The translations under genes were made by a program, and so were the position numbers. From NCBI GenBank assembly GCA_017384185.1, contig JAFNUH010000385.1:1-9281 (forward strand): a DNA stretch of 9,281 nucleotides, read 5' to 3'. The notes beneath the pieces are model-generated. The model was not told where the DNA came from. It saw only the letters and a list, made by a program, of their open reading frames with translations, and searched no databases. Each line of letters opens with the position of its first letter. The stretch's first letter is position 1. This stretch comes from Alistipes sp. Its GTDB lineage: Bacteria; Bacteroidota; Bacteroidia; Bacteroidales; Rikenellaceae. Below are positions 46-6,887 of the stretch, one piece after another.

Positions 46-579
46 ATGGCACTTATTAGAAAAGTTCGTGGACACGTTCCCTCGATTGGAGAGAATACAT
101 TTTTGGCTGAGACGGCTACAATTATTGGCGATGTGACAATCGGTAAGGATTGCTCTATCTGGTATGGCGCAGTGTTGCGTGGCGATGTAAACACAATAAC
201 CATTGGCGACCGCACCAACATTCAGGATGGAGCCGTTATCCACACCCTCTACGACAAGTCACCCAAGCCCTCACAGACACACATCGGAAATGATGTATCG
301 GTGGGTCACAACGCTACGATTCACGGCGCACGCATTGGCGATAGCGTTCTGATTGGTATGGGCGCAACCGTTTTGGACAACGCCGTAGTGCCCGAGGGTT
401 GCATCATTGCTGCCAATGCCTTGGTGCTCTCTAACGCCCAGCTTGAGCCCAACTCGGTATATGCCGGTGTGCCTGCCAAGAAGGTGAAGGAGATTACCCC
501 CGAGCAGCGTGAGACAATCGTAAAGCGCACAGCACGAGATTATCAGCTCTACGCTTCGTGGTATAAGGAGGAGGAGTAA
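46..579 (+). CDS. Gamma-class carbonic anhydrase-like protein (left-handed beta-helix, YrdA/PaaY type)
   Basis: The 177-residue product is a soluble hexapeptide-repeat protein expected to form a trimer of left-handed beta-helices with Zn or Fe at the subunit interfaces. The repeats (for example IGDVTIGKDCSIW and IGNDVSVGHNATIHG) cover about residues 10-145, and a helical tail follows from about 150. The three metal ligands expected from the family are present as H66, H88 and H93. The Arg-Asp pair R45/D47 (in GAVLRGD) and Q60/D61 are also kept. The acidic loop carrying the proton-shuttle Glu of archaeal Cam appears to be absent, as is usual in the shorter YrdA/PaaY/CamH-like group, so CO2 hydration activity cannot be assumed. 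Length is normal for the family. ATG 46 follows an A-rich leader. The kinase gene starts 65 bp downstream with no terminator between, so cotranscription is possible, but no functional link is evident. Confidence 0.93.
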   Translation: MALIRKVRGHVPSIGENTFLAETATIIGDVTIGKDCSIWYGAVLRGDVNTITIGDRTNIQDGAVIHTLYDKSPKPSQTHIGNDVSVGHNATIHGARIGDSVLIGMGATVLDNAVVPEGCIIAANALVLSNAQLEPNSVYAGVPAKKVKEITPEQRETIVKRTARDYQLYASWYKEEE

Positions 580-644: not shown

Positions 645-1997
645 ATGTTTAACTTAGAACCCAGACGCTCTACTGCTATCGTAAATGTGATGATTGCAAT
701 AGTCATCACGTTGACGGTTAACTTCTCCTATCTGATTGCGATGATTGTCGATCAGCGAGAGAGTAACGAACAACTGCAACGAGAGCAGACCGAACGTCGC
801 AAGCCTGAGTGCCTCGGCATTCTACACATATCACGTGACGGATATGGTTATCTATTGAGTCAGACGAGCTTCTCGCCCGAGTACCCCGACTCGGTGCGCA
901 CGGATAGTATCTACGTTAGACCGCAGACCATACGTTTCTATAATCTTCAGCAGTCAGACACTCTGCTTTGTACCATAAATCCGCCACACAAAGGCTCAAA
1001 CCCCAATGTTTCGGAGGTGCTGGAACAGAACGGAGCTGAAATCTCAGCGCCCGTGATATATGACCGTCCCAAGCGCAGTTACGAGATGGTGGTGCAGCTA
1101 CTATACTACTTGGGGTTGTCTTATATATTGCTGACGATTATGACCATCAAGTTCGATGTGCATAACTTCACCTATCGTCGCTATATGTTGCGTTGTACGG
1201 CGGTGGTGGCGGCTACGCTGATACTCTACTTCGTTGCCCCCTTTACCGATTGGCGTACGGGTAAGATGATGATAATGCTTCAGCACCCACGTATGTTGCT
1301 CGATTGGATGGTGGTACTGAAATGTACTGTGGTAATCGTTGTTGCCATTCTCTACGGACGTATCTACGGTCAGCTGTTGGAGCAGCAGAAAATCTTGCTC
1401 GAGAACGAACATCTGCGTACGGAGAACCTCCAGACACGATACAATATGTTGCTGGGACAGATTAGCCCCCACTTCTTCTTCAACTCACTCAACTCACTCT
1501 CGATGTTGGTGCGAGAAAAGAGCGATGAGAAGGCTTTGGCATATATCGACCAGCTATCCTACACCTTCCGTTACATCATTCAGAATGGGCAGAACACCAC
1601 TACAACATTGGAGGAGGAGATGGAGTTTGCTCGTGCCTATGGCGAGTTGTTTAAGGTACGTTATGCCGACAAGCTATTCTTCGACATCGATATTGACCCA
1701 ACATATAATGGCTGGACACTACCCGCACTCACCTTGCAACCCCTGATTGGCAATGCAGTGAAGCACAACACCATAACCCGCAAGCAACCCTTACGTGTCA
1801 TTATTCGCACCGAGGGCTCAACCCTCGTGGTGGCAAATCGCAAGGCTCCGAAGCTCGAGCCTGAGCCTTCTACCGGCATTGGTCTAAAGAATCTACGCAG
1901 TCGCTGGCAGCTCATCACGGGTCACGACATCGAGATTATAGATAACGAGAACGAGTTTATCATTCGCCTGCCATTGCAGCGCCAGACTATTTCTTAA
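645..1997 (+). CDS. LytS/YehU-family sensor histidine kinase with a Rho-like extracytoplasmic domain
   Basis: The 450-residue membrane kinase probably phosphorylates the LytTR regulator encoded 16 bp downstream. Hydrophobic helices are seen at about residues 12-35, 147-168, 184-201 and 218-238. Arg/Lys clusters in the N-terminus and in the 170-183 loop put those parts and the C-terminal kinase in the cytoplasm, and residues 36-146 outside. A short coiled coil (about 240-265) leads into the His_kinase domain. The phospho-acceptor motif is QISPHFFFN with H276, the N-box is LQPLIGNAVKHN with N370, and the G-box is STGIGLKNL with G411 and G413. The extracytoplasmic part is odd: residues 57-130 resemble the N-terminal RNA-binding OB fold of Rho, with DGYGYLL at 65-71, IYVRP at 89-93, IRFYNL at 96-101 and INPPHKG at 111-117. 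The kinase assignment is firm; the role of the sensor domain is unknown. No promoter is evident in 580-644. Confidence 0.95.
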   Translation: MFNLEPRRSTAIVNVMIAIVITLTVNFSYLIAMIVDQRESNEQLQREQTERRKPECLGILHISRDGYGYLLSQTSFSPEYPDSVRTDSIYVRPQTIRFYNLQQSDTLLCTINPPHKGSNPNVSEVLEQNGAEISAPVIYDRPKRSYEMVVQLLYYLGLSYILLTIMTIKFDVHNFTYRRYMLRCTAVVAATLILYFVAPFTDWRTGKMMIMLQHPRMLLDWMVVLKCTVVIVVAILYGRIYGQLLEQQKILLENEHLRTENLQTRYNMLLGQISPHFFFNSLNSLSMLVREKSDEKALAYIDQLSYTFRYIIQNGQNTTTTLEEEMEFARAYGELFKVRYADKLFFDIDIDPTYNGWTLPALTLQPLIGNAVKHNTITRKQPLRVIIRTEGSTLVVANRKAPKLEPEPSTGIGLKNLRSRWQLITGHDIEIIDNENEFIIRLPLQRQTIS

Positions 1998-2013: not shown

Positions 2014-2790
2014 ATGAATGTACTTATCATAGAGGACGAGACGGCTGCTGCCGTAAACCTAAAGGCTATATTACGTAGTGTGGTGCCCGACTGCAATGTG
2101 ATTGACGTGTTGGAGAGCATCGAGGAGAGTGTGGATTTCTTCAAGGATAAGAGTAGCCCCACGCCTGACCTTGTATTTATGGATATACACCTCGCCGATG
2201 GCGAGTCATTCCGCATATTCGATTCGGTGGAGATTACATCGCCGATAATATTCACTACGGCTTACGATGAATATGCTCTTAGAGCATTCAAAGTCAACAG
2301 CATAGACTACATCCTAAAGCCCATCAAGTCGGATGATCTACGCCACGCCATTGACAAGTTCACCCGCCTAAGCGGTGTGGAGCGCAACGACCTCAAGAGC
2401 CGTATCGACACTATGGTCGAGAGCACTAAGCGTGAGAATCAGAGGGTATTTTTGGTGCATTTCAAGGATAAAATCATTCCTCTGTCGGTTGACGATATTG
2501 CATACTTCTACACATCGAACGAGAAGGTGGCGGCATTCACCCACAAGGGTGAGCGCTATGTCATCGACCGTACGTTAGAGGTGTTGCAATCAACCCTACC
2601 CGAGGATGAGTTCTTCCGTGCCAACCGCCAATTTATCGTATCACGCCGAGCCGTGAAGGATATTGCCGTGTGGTTTGGCAGTCGCCTATCGCTTAACCTA
2701 ACAATCGCCCCCCCCGAGAAGATTATCATCTCGAAGGCTCGTGTACCAGAGTTCAAGCAGTGGCTGATGGATATTAACACAGGAGAGTAA
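2014..2790 (+). CDS. LytTR-family response regulator
   Basis: The 258-residue cytoplasmic transcription factor is the partner of the preceding kinase. The receiver domain covers about residues 1-118, with acidic pocket E7/D8, phospho-acceptor D57 (in FMDIHLADG), switch Thr T82 and K102 before P103. A helical linker (about 120-143) leads to a LytTR DNA-binding domain at about 144-250, recognised from VHFKDKIIPLSVDDIAYF, FFRANRQFIVSRRAV and the terminal KIIISKARVPEFKQWL. Length and architecture match the AgrA/LytR/YpdB class. The gap of only 16 bp after the kinase stop indicates an operon, closed by the terminator at 2789-2816. LytTR proteins bind direct repeats spaced about two helical turns apart. 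Arrays of that kind lie upstream of the next two genes, which makes them the probable targets; this is an inference. Confidence 0.96.
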   Translation: MNVLIIEDETAAAVNLKAILRSVVPDCNVIDVLESIEESVDFFKDKSSPTPDLVFMDIHLADGESFRIFDSVEITSPIIFTTAYDEYALRAFKVNSIDYILKPIKSDDLRHAIDKFTRLSGVERNDLKSRIDTMVESTKRENQRVFLVHFKDKIIPLSVDDIAYFYTSNEKVAAFTHKGERYVIDRTLEVLQSTLPEDEFFRANRQFIVSRRAVKDIAVWFGSRLSLNLTIAPPEKIIISKARVPEFKQWLMDINTGE

Positions 2791-2816
2791 AATCGGGGAA
2801 CGCCCCGATTTTTTCT
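2789..2816 (+). terminator. Rho-independent terminator of the kinase-regulator operon
   Basis: A perfect 8-bp hairpin, AATCGGGG (2791-2798) and CCCCGATT (2803-2810) with an AACG loop, is followed by TTTTCTTT and starts one base after the regulator stop codon. Confidence 0.93.
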
Positions 2817-2886: not shown

Positions 2887-2984
2887 GTCACTTCACCCCT
2901 ATCGATTGGTCACTTCACCCCTATCGATTGGTCGATTCACCCCGCATATTTGTCGTTTCACCGATAAAATAGAGCATTTCATTG
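2887..2984 (+). repeat. Five phased direct repeats, probable LytTR regulator binding array
   Basis: Copies begin at 2887, 2909, 2931, 2952 and 2973, giving spacings of 22, 22, 21 and 21 bp. Copies 1 and 2 are identical over 22 bp. The first nine bases read GTCACTTCA, GTCACTTCA, GTCGATTCA, GTCGTTTCA and AGCATTTCA; the first four copies continue with CC or CCCC. The spacing of about two helical turns puts all copies on one DNA face. The last copy ends 11 bp before the -7 element at 2995, in the position where an activator would contact RNA polymerase. The E. coli LytTR protein YpdB is known, as I recall, to bind direct repeats of GGCATTTCAT with 11-bp spacers, and copy 5 extended by one base (AGCATTTCAT) matches 9 of 10 of it. 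The repeat is seen directly; the bound protein is inferred. Confidence 0.85.
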
Positions 2985-3118: not shown

Positions 3119-3610
3119 ATGAATTTAGTAATCCACACACTTACCATCATCTTGGCGACAATGGCTACCGTCTCGGCATATGCCCAGATGCCCGACCAGG
3201 GTCAGCGTCCCCAGCGCCAGCACTTCTCGGTTGAGAATATGGCAAAGATGCAGACCGAGCAGACGGCTCAAATGCTTAAGCTAACAGAGGAGCAGGCACA
3301 GGAGCTATACCAGCTAAACCTCGCAAATGCTAACGCACAGATTAAGCAGATGGAGGAGATGCGCAAGCGTCAGCAGACTCGAGAGGCGGCATATGATGAG
3401 GCAATTAAGTTGATTTTAGACGAGTCGCAGTACAAGAAATGGGCGAAGCATAAGCAGCAACAACAGCAAAACCGTATGAACCGTGGTATGGGAGGTCCAG
3501 GTATGATGGGTCCTCGTGGTATGAACGGAGGTTTTGGCGGTGAGACCGGAGGCTTTGGAAATTCTGAAGGATTCGGTGGCGGAGGCTTCGACAATGAAAT
3601 GGGGTTCTAA
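3119..3610 (+). CDS. Small exported Spy/CpxP-like protein with Gly/Met-rich tail
   Basis: The 163-residue product has a signal peptide at residues 1-22 (hydrophobic core followed by SAYA|Q). Its n-region carries no Lys or Arg, which is unusual, but the in-frame TAA at 3095 leaves no earlier ATG. The mature part begins with a Gln/Pro/Arg-rich stretch. A helical region at about 38-115 follows (ENMAKMQTEQTAQMLKLTEEQAQELYQLN), with the LT-x-x-Q-type pattern of Spy/CpxP-like periplasmic proteins and the related Bacteroides DUF4890 group; this likeness is from motif memory, not a search. A Gln run (113-117) leads into a low-complexity Gly/Met/Phe tail from about 120 (RGMGGPGMMGPRGM, then GGFGG repeats). 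The tail resembles the C-terminus of the barrel protein encoded next. A periplasmic chaperone or envelope-stress role is plausible. The gene has its own repeat array, promoter and terminator. Confidence 0.85.
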   Translation: MNLVIHTLTIILATMATVSAYAQMPDQGQRPQRQHFSVENMAKMQTEQTAQMLKLTEEQAQELYQLNLANANAQIKQMEEMRKRQQTREAAYDEAIKLILDESQYKKWAKHKQQQQQNRMNRGMGGPGMMGPRGMNGGFGGETGGFGNSEGFGGGGFDNEMGF

Positions 3611-3682: not shown

Positions 3683-3717
3683 AGGGGTGTCAAGGCGTTG
3701 GCACCCCTGTTTTTTTA
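3683..3717 (+). terminator. Rho-independent terminator of the small exported protein gene
   Basis: A 9-bp stem, AGGGGTGTC (3683-3691) with GGCACCCCT (3700-3708), includes one G-U pair and has an 8-nt loop. It is followed by G and a run of T from 3710. It separates this transcript from the barrel-protein promoter. Confidence 0.9.
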
Positions 3718-3756: not shown

Positions 3757-3816
3757 AATTTTTCAATCCCTCGAAAAGGTCATTTCACCCTCGACAAAAG
3801 TCGTTTCGCCCCCCTT
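3757..3816 (+). repeat. Second phased direct-repeat array, probable LytTR regulator binding site
   Basis: Two clear copies, GTCATTTCACCC at 3779 and GTCGTTTCGCCC at 3800 (21-bp spacing), share the motif of the array at 2887-2984. A degenerate copy with core TTTCA lies 22 bp upstream (3761-3765). The last clear copy begins 44 bp before the -7 element at 3844. In the first array, copy 4 begins 43 bp before its -7 element, so the arrangement is nearly the same at both promoters. Together the two arrays define a putative regulon. Confidence 0.8.
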
Positions 3817-3923: not shown

Positions 3924-6887
3924 ATGAAGAGAATTCTAATCACATTAATTTTTGTTTGCATCACGGCTCTTTCGTATGCACAGAGTAGTAAGGTAACTCT
4001 CACAGTTATCGACGCAGCTACGCAGGAGGGCGTTGCTGGTGCAATCGTTTCGGTTGCTCCCGCAGCTGAGCCTGAGAATGAGGATAAGACAAAGCACTAC
4101 ACCTCAGGTTTCGGTGGCGCTACAACCATCACAGGTCTTAAGCGTGGCGAGTACAAGGTATCAATCGCCTTCTTGGGTTATGCGACCAAGGTCGTTGATT
4201 TGAAAGCCAACACAGCAAATGTTGACCTCGGCAAGATTGCTCTTGAGGAGGAGGCTACAAAGATTGAGACCGTAGTAAAGACCGTGCAGGCTATCCGTGC
4301 TTCGCAGAAGGGTGATACGGTTTCCTACAATGCCGACGCCTTCAAGGTGGCAAACGATGCCGACGTTGAGGGTCTTTTGAAGAAGATGCCGGGTATTACC
4401 GTTACCGATGGTCAGGTAGAGGCACAGGGTGAGACCGTTAAGAAGATTCTTGTCGATGGTAAGGAGTTCTTCGGCGAGGATGTATCTACGGCTCTTAACT
4501 CACTTCCCGCACAGTCGGTAAAGAGTGTTGAGGTATTCAACAAGCTTAGCGATAATGCCGAGTTTTCAGGCGTGGATGATGGCGAGAGCTACAAGGCTAT
4601 CAACATCATCACTCACGAGAATATGCGTCAGGGTGTATTCGGTAAGGTATTCGCAGGATATGGTTATCAGCCCGACACCGACGAAATTACCGAGCACAAC
4701 AAGTATATGGCGGGTGGTAATGTAAACTTCTTCCACGGCTCGAGCCGTATTTCATTGATTGGTTTGTTGAATAACGTCAACCAGCAGAACTTCTCGTTCG
4801 AGGATATCCTCGGCGTAGATGGTGATGGTGGTGGCGGTATGCGACGTCCCCAGCGAGGTCTTGCAAACGTAGGTTCAATTGGTTTGAACTACTCTGATTC
4901 GTGGGGCGAGAAGGAGAAGGTTAAGTTGCAGGCAAGCTACTTCTACAACCAGACTCGCACACGTAACCTCTCGGAACTTATCAAGTGGTACGAGGCTCCG
5001 CTTGAGGAGTTGGGTACATTGGAGCAGGAGGGCTACTCTGATAACCGTAACTACAACCACCGTTTGAATGCTCGTTTGGATTGGCGCATCTCGGATAAGC
5101 AGTCGTTGATGTCACGTACAAACCTCAGCTTCCAGCAGCACGACCCATACAGACGTACCGATGGTTTGCAGATTGGTCCCGACCTCACAAATCCCGATAA
5201 CTTGTACGACATCGTACGTAGCGGTAGCGATGGCGACAATGGCGGTTACAACTTCTCGGAGTTCTTGCAGTACCGTTTGAAGTTGGGTAAGAATGGTCGT
5301 TTCCTTACAGCTGATGCACGTATCAACCACCGTGACAACAACAACGAGTCACGCAGTTTCTCTACTCAGCAGACTCTTAAGGATGCAGCAGGCGAGTACT
5401 ACCCCTTGTTGCGCCACCTCTCTAACTTGTCTGACTCGGAGAATACAGGCGTAAGTGCATCGGTCAACTACACCGAGCCTTTGGGTAAGACCACTCAGCT
5501 CAGCTTGCGTTATAACTTCAACTACAACACAAGCAAGAGCGTCAAGGAGACTACAAACTACGGCGACGACGACACATATACTAACGGTGTAATCGACAAG
5601 TTGCTCTCAAACCGTTTCCAGAGCGATAACACAAGACACAACATCGGTCCTCGCTTCAACTGGAACAAGGGTGGTAACGTGCTTGTATTGAGCCTTGAGT
5701 ACCAGCACTCGACACTCAACGGTTTCATCCAGTCGTCAAAGGATGTTAACGTTAAGCGTGACTACAACGACTTTACATACTTCTTGATGGGTAACTTCAA
5801 CATCAACCAGCAGAACTCGATTCGTCTGTTCGTTCGTTCAAACACTAGCAACCCCGACATTCGTCAGTTGAACAGTATCCTCGACGTATCGAACGCACAG
5901 TATGTATCACGTGGTAACGAGAAGCTAAGCCCCACTTACTCACACAATGTAATGTTCCACTACAACCACACCAACTTGGAGAAGGGACGTACATTTATGT
6001 GGATGTTTATGTTCAACAAGTCGAAGAACACTATCGCATCAAGTATGTACACTGGTAACGGCATCACCAACGATATGATTCCCGAGCTTGCAGGCAGCAA
6101 CCGCCCCATCCAGTACAGCACATACGAGAATGTAAAGGATGGTACAATGAATATCGGTACAAACCTTAGCTACGGTATTCCTTTGAACTTTATGAAGTGT
6201 AACTTCAACATCTCGGGAGGTGTACACTACTCACAGAGTCCTTCGTTGGTAAATGGCGAGGTGAATGTCGCAAGCAACATTGGTTACAATGCTCGTGTAG
6301 TATTGGGTAGTAACATCTCAGAGAATGTCGATTTCACACTCTCTTGGCACGGAGGTTACAACCAGGCTGAGAACTCATTGGCATCGAGGGGTGGCAAGAA
6401 CGAGTACTTCAACCACTCGGCAACAGGTACGTTCAAGGCTGTATTCTGGAAGGGCTTCACATTTACTGCAAGTGCAAACTACATTCAGAATATCGGTTTC
6501 ACGAACGACTATAACGATGACTACACTCTTATCAACGCTTACCTCGGTAAGAAGCTCTTCAAGAACCGCTTGGGTGAGGTTATGGTTGGTGTAAACGACC
6601 TTCTTAACCAGAATACATCGTTCAACCGTTCAACAGGTTCAGGTTTTGCGCAGAACTCTTGGAATAGCGTAATCGGTCGCTACTTCACCGTGCAGTTCAA
6701 CTACAACTTGCGAGTATTCGGTAAGAGAGGTTCACGTGTACTCTCAGACTACGGCATCAACGACGGTAACAACAATGGTTCGTTTGGACGTGGCGCAGCA
6801 AGACCCGGAATGGGCGGTCCTGGCGGTATGAGAGGTCCCGGTATGGGAGGTCCTGGTATGGGAGGTCCTGGTGGTTTCCGCCGCTAA
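3924..6887 (+). CDS. Outer-membrane beta-barrel (TonB-receptor-like) protein with CarboxypepD_reg domain and Gly/Met-rich tail
   Basis: The 987-residue outer-membrane protein has a signal peptide at residues 1-19 (cleavage SYA|Q). A carboxypeptidase-regulatory-like Ig domain follows at about 23-107 (VTLTVIDAATQEGVAGAIVSV, GLKRGEYKVSIAFLGY). A plug-like region lies at about 118-230 (DTVSYNADAFKV, GLLKKMPGITV, KILVDGKEFFGED). The rest to about 935 is rich in alternating aromatic strands typical of the barrel family often called outer membrane beta-barrel protein (PF14905-like). I see no obvious TonB box and no SusD partner nearby, so glycan import is not supported; substrate unknown. The last strand-like segment (RYFTVQFNYNLRVFG) is followed by about 50 extra residues ending in GMGGPGGM-type repeats, which should face the periplasm. 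Codon use is biased to a few codons, suggesting high expression. The gene is monocistronic between a repeat-bearing promoter and a terminator. Confidence 0.92.
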   Translation: MKRILITLIFVCITALSYAQSSKVTLTVIDAATQEGVAGAIVSVAPAAEPENEDKTKHYTSGFGGATTITGLKRGEYKVSIAFLGYATKVVDLKANTANVDLGKIALEEEATKIETVVKTVQAIRASQKGDTVSYNADAFKVANDADVEGLLKKMPGITVTDGQVEAQGETVKKILVDGKEFFGEDVSTALNSLPAQSVKSVEVFNKLSDNAEFSGVDDGESYKAINIITHENMRQGVFGKVFAGYGYQPDTDEITEHNKYMAGGNVNFFHGSSRISLIGLLNNVNQQNFSFEDILGVDGDGGGGMRRPQRGLANVGSIGLNYSDSWGEKEKVKLQASYFYNQTRTRNLSELIKWYEAPLEELGTLEQEGYSDNRNYNHRLNARLDWRISDKQSLMSRTNLSFQQHDPYRRTDGLQIGPDLTNPDNLYDIVRSGSDGDNGGYNFSEFLQYRLKLGKNGRFLTADARINHRDNNNESRSFSTQQTLKDAAGEYYPLLRHLSNLSDSENTGVSASVNYTEPLGKTTQLSLRYNFNYNTSKSVKETTNYGDDDTYTNGVIDKLLSNRFQSDNTRHNIGPRFNWNKGGNVLVLSLEYQHSTLNGFIQSSKDVNVKRDYNDFTYFLMGNFNINQQNSIRLFVRSNTSNPDIRQLNSILDVSNAQYVSRGNEKLSPTYSHNVMFHYNHTNLEKGRTFMWMFMFNKSKNTIASSMYTGNGITNDMIPELAGSNRPIQYSTYENVKDGTMNIGTNLSYGIPLNFMKCNFNISGGVHYSQSPSLVNGEVNVASNIGYNARVVLGSNISENVDFTLSWHGGYNQAENSLASRGGKNEYFNHSATGTFKAVFWKGFTFTASANYIQNIGFTNDYNDDYTLINAYLGKKLFKNRLGEVMVGVNDLLNQNTSFNRSTGSGFAQNSWNSVIGRYFTVQFNYNLRVFGKRGSRVLSDYGINDGNNNGSFGRGAARPGMGGPGGMRGPGMGGPGMGGPGGFRR

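Follow-up and report, generated by a model that had tools for sequence, protein, structure and literature searches.

The Locus and the Sensor Kinase

The stretch of DNA considered here (the window, 9,281 nucleotides; contig JAFNUH010000385.1 of the assembly GCA_017384185.1, Alistipes sp., family Rikenellaceae) carries a gene for a sensor histidine kinase (645..1997, an open reading frame (ORF) of 450 amino acids), followed 16 bases past its stop codon by a gene for a LytTR response regulator (2014..2790; ORF with Response_reg and LytTR matches in Pfam). The kinase matches both PF06580 and PF07497 over the Pfam cut-offs, the latter through a homologue of the cold-shock RNA-binding domain found in Rho; this domain is placed between the first and second of four predicted membrane helices. 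All window features given here and below lie on the plus strand.

The kinase begins with predicted membrane helix 1 (TM1; residues about 9–35, 669..749), which is indicated by hydropathy, by the helices spanning residues 6–47 of the AlphaFold model, and by hydrophobicity in 107/107 relatives. Then comes the Rho-type cold-shock/OB domain (residues 57–130, 813..1034), predicted to be periplasmic and recognized by profile, sequence, and structure matches; in it alignment and site counts equate the D-G-Y-G-Y core (residues 65–69, 837..851) with D60-G-F-G-F64 of Rho and Y90 (912..914) with Y80 of Rho. Predicted helices TM2 (residues about 148–168, 1086..1148), TM3 (about 180–202, 1182..1250), and TM4 (about 217–241, 1293..1367) were assigned by hydropathy, model, and relatives and lead to the His_kinase region PF06580 (residues 265–344, 1437..1676; E = 8.6e-22), where H276 in SPHFFFNS is invariant in the clade alignment. 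In the same Pfam scan no Rho motor (ATPase) family was matched by the kinase, the C-terminus being His_kinase instead, and at E up to 0.1 neither the 5TMR_LYT membrane input domain nor the BOF periplasmic OB-fold profile was matched; a match to TMEM127 (E = 0.043) stays under the cut-off of that family. The sole cysteine of the predicted periplasmic domain, C109 (969..971), is nearly invariant in the clade of the window, and by our own reading only 5 of the 35 aligned domains have a cysteine in its column.

Relationship to Rho

The Pfam family Rho_RNA_bind (PF07497) covers kinase residues 58–117 with an E value of 1.6e-7 and 31.4 bits, the cut-off being 27. A PDB search with the domain as a single sequence retrieved E. 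coli Rho (E = 3.6e-6), and with a profile built from 35 kinase domains the E value became 3e-12. The same profile gave only E = 0.36 for RNase R, and since the profile scores favour Rho a generic OB origin of the domain was rejected. In the domain alignment each of the 35 sequences matches PF07497 (E ≤ 0.01); the stretch common to the kinase domain and Rho takes in DIYVSPSQIRRFNL, GDT, and PP, and the D-G-Y-G-Y core is invariant within the clade of the window (alignment A1). Foldseek showed 50 matches for the whole model, each a histidine kinase or a protein with a kinase part, and a separate model was therefore made of the domain; this predicted model has a five-strand cold-shock OB fold like that of Rho 1a62. 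According to these data the loop domain of the kinase is homologous to the Rho RNA-binding cold-shock domain.

An earlier note, made from the sequence alone, had suggested this likeness from the order of motifs, and these are all found at the residues it gave: G58-x-L60, D65-G66-Y67-G68-Y69, S88-I89-Y90-V91-R92-P93, I96-R-F-Y-N-L101, S-D105-T, and I-N-P-P-H-K-G, with Y67, Y69, and Y90 aligned with F62, F64, and Y80 of Rho. The same note had named the lack of any significant match as the ground for giving up the likeness, and the sequence, profile, and structure matches are all significant; its question of whether the domain recurs in homologous kinases is answered by its presence across the genus. 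The true Rho of this genome is a separate gene on another contig (C280; 114.6 bits). The NCBIfam Rho equivalog models match only residues 30–117 of the kinase (E = 2.9e-6, far under the cut-off), and owing to this match the kinase could be misnamed Rho by loose annotation. Many of these proteins already bear the Pfam Rho label in databases, and among the open PubMed Central (PMC) papers listed by literature searches none was seen to describe a kinase with a Rho domain.

Composition of the Altered Rho Pocket

The pocket counts refer to 108 kinases (the window, 80 named and 27 unnamed), gaps accounting for the shortfalls and up to seven residues being listed per site. The sites of Rho F62 and F64, which we take to be RNA-stacking positions, are occupied by Y (61), H (37), and F (6) and by Y (102) and F (2), respectively, and the site of Y80 is occupied by Y (93), F (12), and H (2). 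At the R66 site V (44), I (38), L (16), T (3), M (2), and R (1) were counted, at the D78 site S (102), T (3), and K (2), at the F89 site L (55), Y (21), F (14), M (7), H (4), I (3), and W (1), and at the Y110 site H (76), N (30), and S (1), the E108-R/K109-Y110 triplet of Rho being mostly replaced by G-A-H/N.

Excerpts of the published work give these sites their meaning: Y80 of Rho touches nucleic acid (PMC1950744), E. coli Rho recognizes pyrimidine nucleotides by six residues, R66, D78, and Y80 included (PMC9908020), and the triple substitution Y80A/R88A/F89A abolishes binding at the Rho primary site, on which a protein, Rof, is able to sit (PMC11018607). The Rho proteins of Rikenellaceae keep R66, D78, and Y80 in 13/13 cases, whereas by the pyrimidine-reading residues R66 (1/104) and D78 (0/107) the kinases fall outside the family. 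Thus, the kinases retain the stacking positions and have exchanged the base-reading edge for a different conserved set; within the domain the pocket aromatics and the D-G-x-G turn rank with the most strongly conserved positions. The kept stackers and the new conserved edge point to a binding site that is retained but altered. Nearly all of the kinases have lost R66 and D78, and a specificity like that for mRNA is therefore unlikely to have been preserved in their domain.

Position Relative to the Membrane

Hydropathy gives four hydrophobic segments in the window kinase (residues about 9–35, 148–168, 180–202, and 217–241), and the AlphaFold model has helices at residues 6–25, 27–47, 145–167, 177–195, and 221–272. 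Among 107 relatives (the 108 kinases less L145, which ends at a contig end) each of TM1–TM4 contains a 19-residue stretch whose mean hydropathy reaches 1.3 in 107/107 and the domain region does so in 4/107, while the same three hydrophobic segments precede the kinase in 14/14 sister kinases that have no such domain. Since three helices separate it from the kinase, the domain (residues 36–146) is predicted to lie on the opposite side of the membrane, in the periplasm. The four helices of the earlier note are in this way recovered, and its outer-side placement holds as a prediction to which hydropathy, model, and relatives all contribute; the topology that the note had named as a refutation, with residues 36–146 in the cytoplasm or in the membrane, is not the one predicted. 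The clearly basic sides of the membrane part are the N-terminus (mean of 2.5 basic versus 0.25 acidic residues in the 107 relatives) and loop 2 (2.8 versus 0.5), and judged over all loops the charge rule would favour this topology only in part.

Distribution and Origin of the Domain

In a family survey of 120 genomes, evenly drawn from 22 genera, PF07497 matches besides the strong Rho ones occurred in genera g1 (by inference Alistipes), g16, and g17 only. There were 38 of them, 27 over the Pfam cut-off and 11 under it, and the kinase accounts for 37 (27 over, 10 under); the match G104:C22, one of the 11 under the cut-off, was set aside as not this kinase. This weak match, the third to PF07497 in genome G104, falls in an unrelated ORF of 514 amino acids (L062, 3656–5200, minus strand) that is neither Rho nor the kinase and looks TPR-like by eye. 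A second search of the same genomes with kinase residues 1–255 as a query found such a kinase in 31/32 g1 genomes, 11/11 g16 genomes, and 1/1 g17 genome, G097 being the g1 genome without it and the copy of G099 being degenerate; PF07497 at E up to 0.001 missed 6/43 of these kinases. In the other genera, among the matches listed, similarity to the kinase starts at residue 134 at the earliest, except in G090 (residue 87) and in G086, where the match is a separate TM1 piece. Order-wide, in 295 genomes, the listed domain matches from outside the family lie in open frames of at least 405 residues, most of which, as far as inspected, exceed these kinases in length. The named records bearing the kinase (the 80 retained from 561 confirmed) are Alistipes or unclassified Rikenellaceae. 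Among the genomes sampled the domain-bearing kinase was found only in Alistipes and two near genera.

Several sister kinases without the domain stand in the same neighbourhood (e.g., L067, L068, and L073), and their TM1 is alignable with that of the domain-bearing kinases. In place of the domain 8 of the 14 sisters have a TM1-TM2 loop of 14–23 residues, the loop being longer in the other 6. The domain profile recognized all 108 kinases that bear the domain (E ≤ 0.001) and scored positively in 0/14 sisters; weak negative-scoring alignments of L066, L067, and L073 fall in the TM1-TM2 loop, where a decayed remnant of the domain may persist. A different insert of about 130 residues occupies this loop in L067, L073, and L079 of genus g20, and the loop seems tolerant of varied inserts.

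In a FastTree phylogeny of 328 core columns (TM1, TM2–TM4, and kinase; domain excluded; unrooted) one split with support of 0.98 parts the 108 domain-bearing kinases from the 14 sisters, which, having been picked for the missing domain, let the tree tell grouping and not frequency. The simplest reading is that the domain was likely inserted once in the Alistipes lineage; the unrooted split is also compatible with loss, and the domain may have been lost in the sisters. Between the window and L087, the one pair compared, nonsynonymous divergence (dN) of the domain is 0.107 and synonymous divergence (dS) is 1.31, the low dN relative to dS being consistent with purifying selection.

Regulator, Neighbouring Genes, and Direct Repeats

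Upstream of the kinase lies a gene for a gamma carbonic anhydrase-like hexapeptide protein (46..579; best NCBIfam model under the cut-off). Neighbours were counted in 80 named loci, each count being restricted to loci that extend far enough: directly upstream stands the carbonic anhydrase-like gene in 74/76, the regulator adjoins the kinase in 64/78, and an outer-membrane gene lies downstream in 57/67 and a small DUF4890-like gene in 31/67. In L045 (genome G116) a secreted-looking ORF of 799 amino acids (7455–9854), glycoside hydrolase-like by eye, stands between kinase and regulator, and in L089 the regulator likewise begins about 2.4 kb past the kinase. In the window the regulator is followed by a small secreted-looking protein of 163 amino acids (3119..3610; weak DUF4890 match under the cut-off) and by an outer-membrane beta-barrel protein of 987 amino acids (3924..6887; OMP_b-brl_3 over the cut-off, CarboxypepD_reg-like start just under it), both having Gly-rich tails. 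Terminator-like hairpins follow the regulator gene (2789..2812) and the small-protein gene (3683..3708); with 3 hairpins in the region against 2.9 expected from shuffles their number is at the chance level, which is weak evidence alone.

The pattern search found four direct repeats (G)TC..TTCACC with 22/22/21-base spacing (2887..2962; starts at 2887, 2909, and 2931, the fourth ending at 2962) before the small secreted protein and two repeats TTCACC/TTCGCC with 21-base spacing (3779..3812; starts at 3779 and 3800) before the outer-membrane protein, all being predicted regulator sites. In the excerpt of PMC4847170 LytTR regulators are stated to bind two direct or inverse repeats of 9–11 bases, 11–13 bases apart, that of YpdB being GGCATTTCAT; the period of 21/22 bases is that of a LytTR target promoter, with the regulator of this locus as the presumed binder. 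In 65 named loci the region upstream of the outer-membrane gene was searched with one mismatch allowed per half and mononucleotide shuffles as a control, and a TTCACC pair at 21 or 22 bases was found in 35/65 loci versus 1.0 in shuffles. The spacing is sharply preferred, with 42 pairs at 21 and 11 at 22 bases and at most 5 at each of the remaining spacings between 10 and 40.

The genome of the window contains six copies of the exact pattern versus one of the reversed pattern; four copies are within the window, and the other two precede an MFP-RND-TolC operon (G000:C64) by 86 bases and an ECF sigma factor gene (G000:C225) by about 200. In larger genomes the pattern is noisy, with 63 matches in six genomes versus 23 for the reversed one. 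Seven regions picked by eye from these 63 are illustrative, three of them preceding the same efflux operon and two the same sigma gene, and the figures to be used are the unpicked counts: the 21/22-base pair is present in 5/27 MFP loci (0.5 expected) and 6/30 sigma loci (0.3 expected). These counts cover 28/28 MFP matches less L272 (contig edge) and 30 of 85 sigma matches; the sigma site of the window genome itself is absent from them, since its contig ends there. An efflux-like operon near G019:C6 was left uncounted, its site being several hundred bases upstream. Sites of this kind are also present at the locus of a domain-less sister kinase (G109), which is consistent with a common output and a changed input.

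Comparison with Known Systems

The domain is like that of Rho (PF07497; PDB 1a62, 2a8v) in model fold, D-G-aromatic-G-aromatic core, aromatic residue at the Y80 site, IRR..L, and GD; unlike Rho, the kinase is without the motor region, is fused to membrane helices, and has R66, D78, and E108-R109-Y110 replaced. With the LytS/LytTR systems (BtsS/BtsR, YpdA/YpdB, and LytS/LytR) it shares PF06580 beside a LytTR regulator and a LytTR-like repeat spacing. However, 5TMR_LYT, which an excerpt of PMC10653868 names as characteristic of such systems, and GAF are unmatched, a four-helix membrane part with the Rho-type insert standing in their place. Hence the term "LytS-type" of the earlier note is right for the His_kinase/LytTR pairing and not for the membrane domain. 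The orthologous four-helix kinases of other Rikenellaceae genera have the same TM1–TM4 and kinase core and, where enough of the locus is available, the same neighbourhood (e.g., L067, L068, and L073), but differ in the loop, which is short in 8/14 or filled with inserts without a domain match in 6/14. The antimicrobial-peptide-binding SipA of Vibrio, whose paper mentions the OB fold (PMC6370654), is a comparable case of a periplasmic OB-type fold, as predicted for our domain, with a suggested role in stress; it is described as a periplasmic protein rather than a kinase, and, as said, BOF is unmatched in the window kinase. Both His_kinase/LytTR pairs and Rho-type domains are already known, and their combination is new.

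Interpretation and Alternatives

We consider it rather probable, somewhat better than an even chance, that the Rho-homologous loop domain was gained by one insertion, is periplasmic, and senses envelope stress via its altered pocket, with the LytTR partner acting at the TTCACC repeats. The Rho-type domain would then be a periplasmic receptor whose altered pocket binds an envelope-stressing compound or peptide; binding would shift helix packing and the activity of the kinase, and the regulator, once phosphorylated, would work at the tandem TTCACC repeats, with the neighbouring secreted protein, the outer-membrane barrel, the RND efflux operon, and the ECF sigma factor as putative targets. The membrane side, the single insertion, the ligand at the old pocket, the repeat-binding regulator, and the target genes are the parts that we infer. 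Since export and envelope genes are the predicted targets, we consider an envelope-damaging compound or peptide of amphipathic or aromatic character the most likely ligand.

Several points weigh against this account. The idea of the ligand draws solely on the names of the target genes, and the net charge of the domain is uninformative (mean of −2.5 versus −3.8 in Rho). Loop 3, predicted outside, has a mean of 2.1 basic versus 1.5 acidic residues in the relatives, and for the residues following TM4, on the predicted inner side, the means are 1.9 versus 2.4; moreover, in BtsS a seventh helix overlooked by hydropathy tools is experimentally supported (excerpt of PMC10653868). The repeats are predicted regulator sites: without a mismatch beyond A/G the pair is found in only 6/65 loci, and a few of the 35 pair-bearing loci look chance-like by eye. 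The link to the regulon is patchy, enriched but far from universal, as 3 of the 4 MFP loci counted in genus g1 are without the pair and two of the seven regions picked by eye precede neither target.

The domain may instead still bind single-stranded nucleic acid or nucleotides and serve as a periplasmic sensor of extracellular DNA or RNA fragments or nucleotide-like compounds. All three stacking positions remain aromatic or His. According to the triple mutant of Rho (excerpt of PMC11018607) Y80, R88, and F89 are required for binding at the primary site; among the kinases the Y80 site is Y/F in 105/107 and R stands at the R88 site in 49/108. Yet R88 is uninformative, since the listed Rikenellaceae Rho proteins are also without R there, no more than 36/108 kinases have an aromatic residue at the F89 site (Leu in 55), E108-R/K109-Y110 has become mostly G-A-H/N, and of the pyrimidine readers R66 is kept in 1/104 and D78 in 0/107; changes at R66, D78, and Y80 are given as a possible cause of weak RNA binding by Thermus Rho (excerpt of PMC9908020). 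The charge of the domain was dropped as an argument against nucleic acid binding, as the Rikenellaceae Rho domains are equally negative. On balance such a sensor is unlikely, and doubtful to a similar degree is the fuller proposal that the Rho domain was moved outside the cytoplasm as a receptor for nucleic acid fragments, nucleotides, or nucleoside-like antibiotics, answered by efflux and outer-membrane remodelling. The capacity of the Rho primary-site face to hold the protein Rof (excerpt of PMC11018607) and the conserved outer-membrane neighbour (57/67 loci) would fit a structural or dimerization module, or a dock for an envelope protein such as the barrel or the small protein, without any small ligand; since the pocket aromatics and the D-G-x-G turn are so strongly conserved and sister kinases manage without the domain, we consider this unlikely as well.

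A cytoplasmic domain that reads RNA there would require an even number of helices before the kinase. The error of hydropathy helix counts in a related kinase (excerpt of PMC10653868), the somewhat positive loop 3, and the lack of net positive charge after TM4 leave some room for this, but three hydrophobic segments between the domain and the kinase in 107/107 relatives, the same segments in 14/14 sisters, and the clearly basic N-terminus and loop 2 make it quite improbable. Least credible of all is a generic OB or cold-shock similarity without Rho descent, against which stand the 35/35 matches to PF07497, the E values of 3e-12 for Rho and 0.36 for RNase R with one profile, and the shared stretch holding DIYVSPSQIRRFNL, GDT, and PP.

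Significance

In the kinase an essential intracellular RNA-binding domain has been copied into a membrane sensor and is predicted to act on the far side of the membrane. Because domain-free kinases persist at the same locus in sister genera, this change of function is directly testable, the two kinds of kinases forming a pair in which the inputs differ and the output sites are apparently partly common. For Alistipes, a common gut genus, the system is proposed as a likely regulator of an efflux operon and of an outer-membrane protein.
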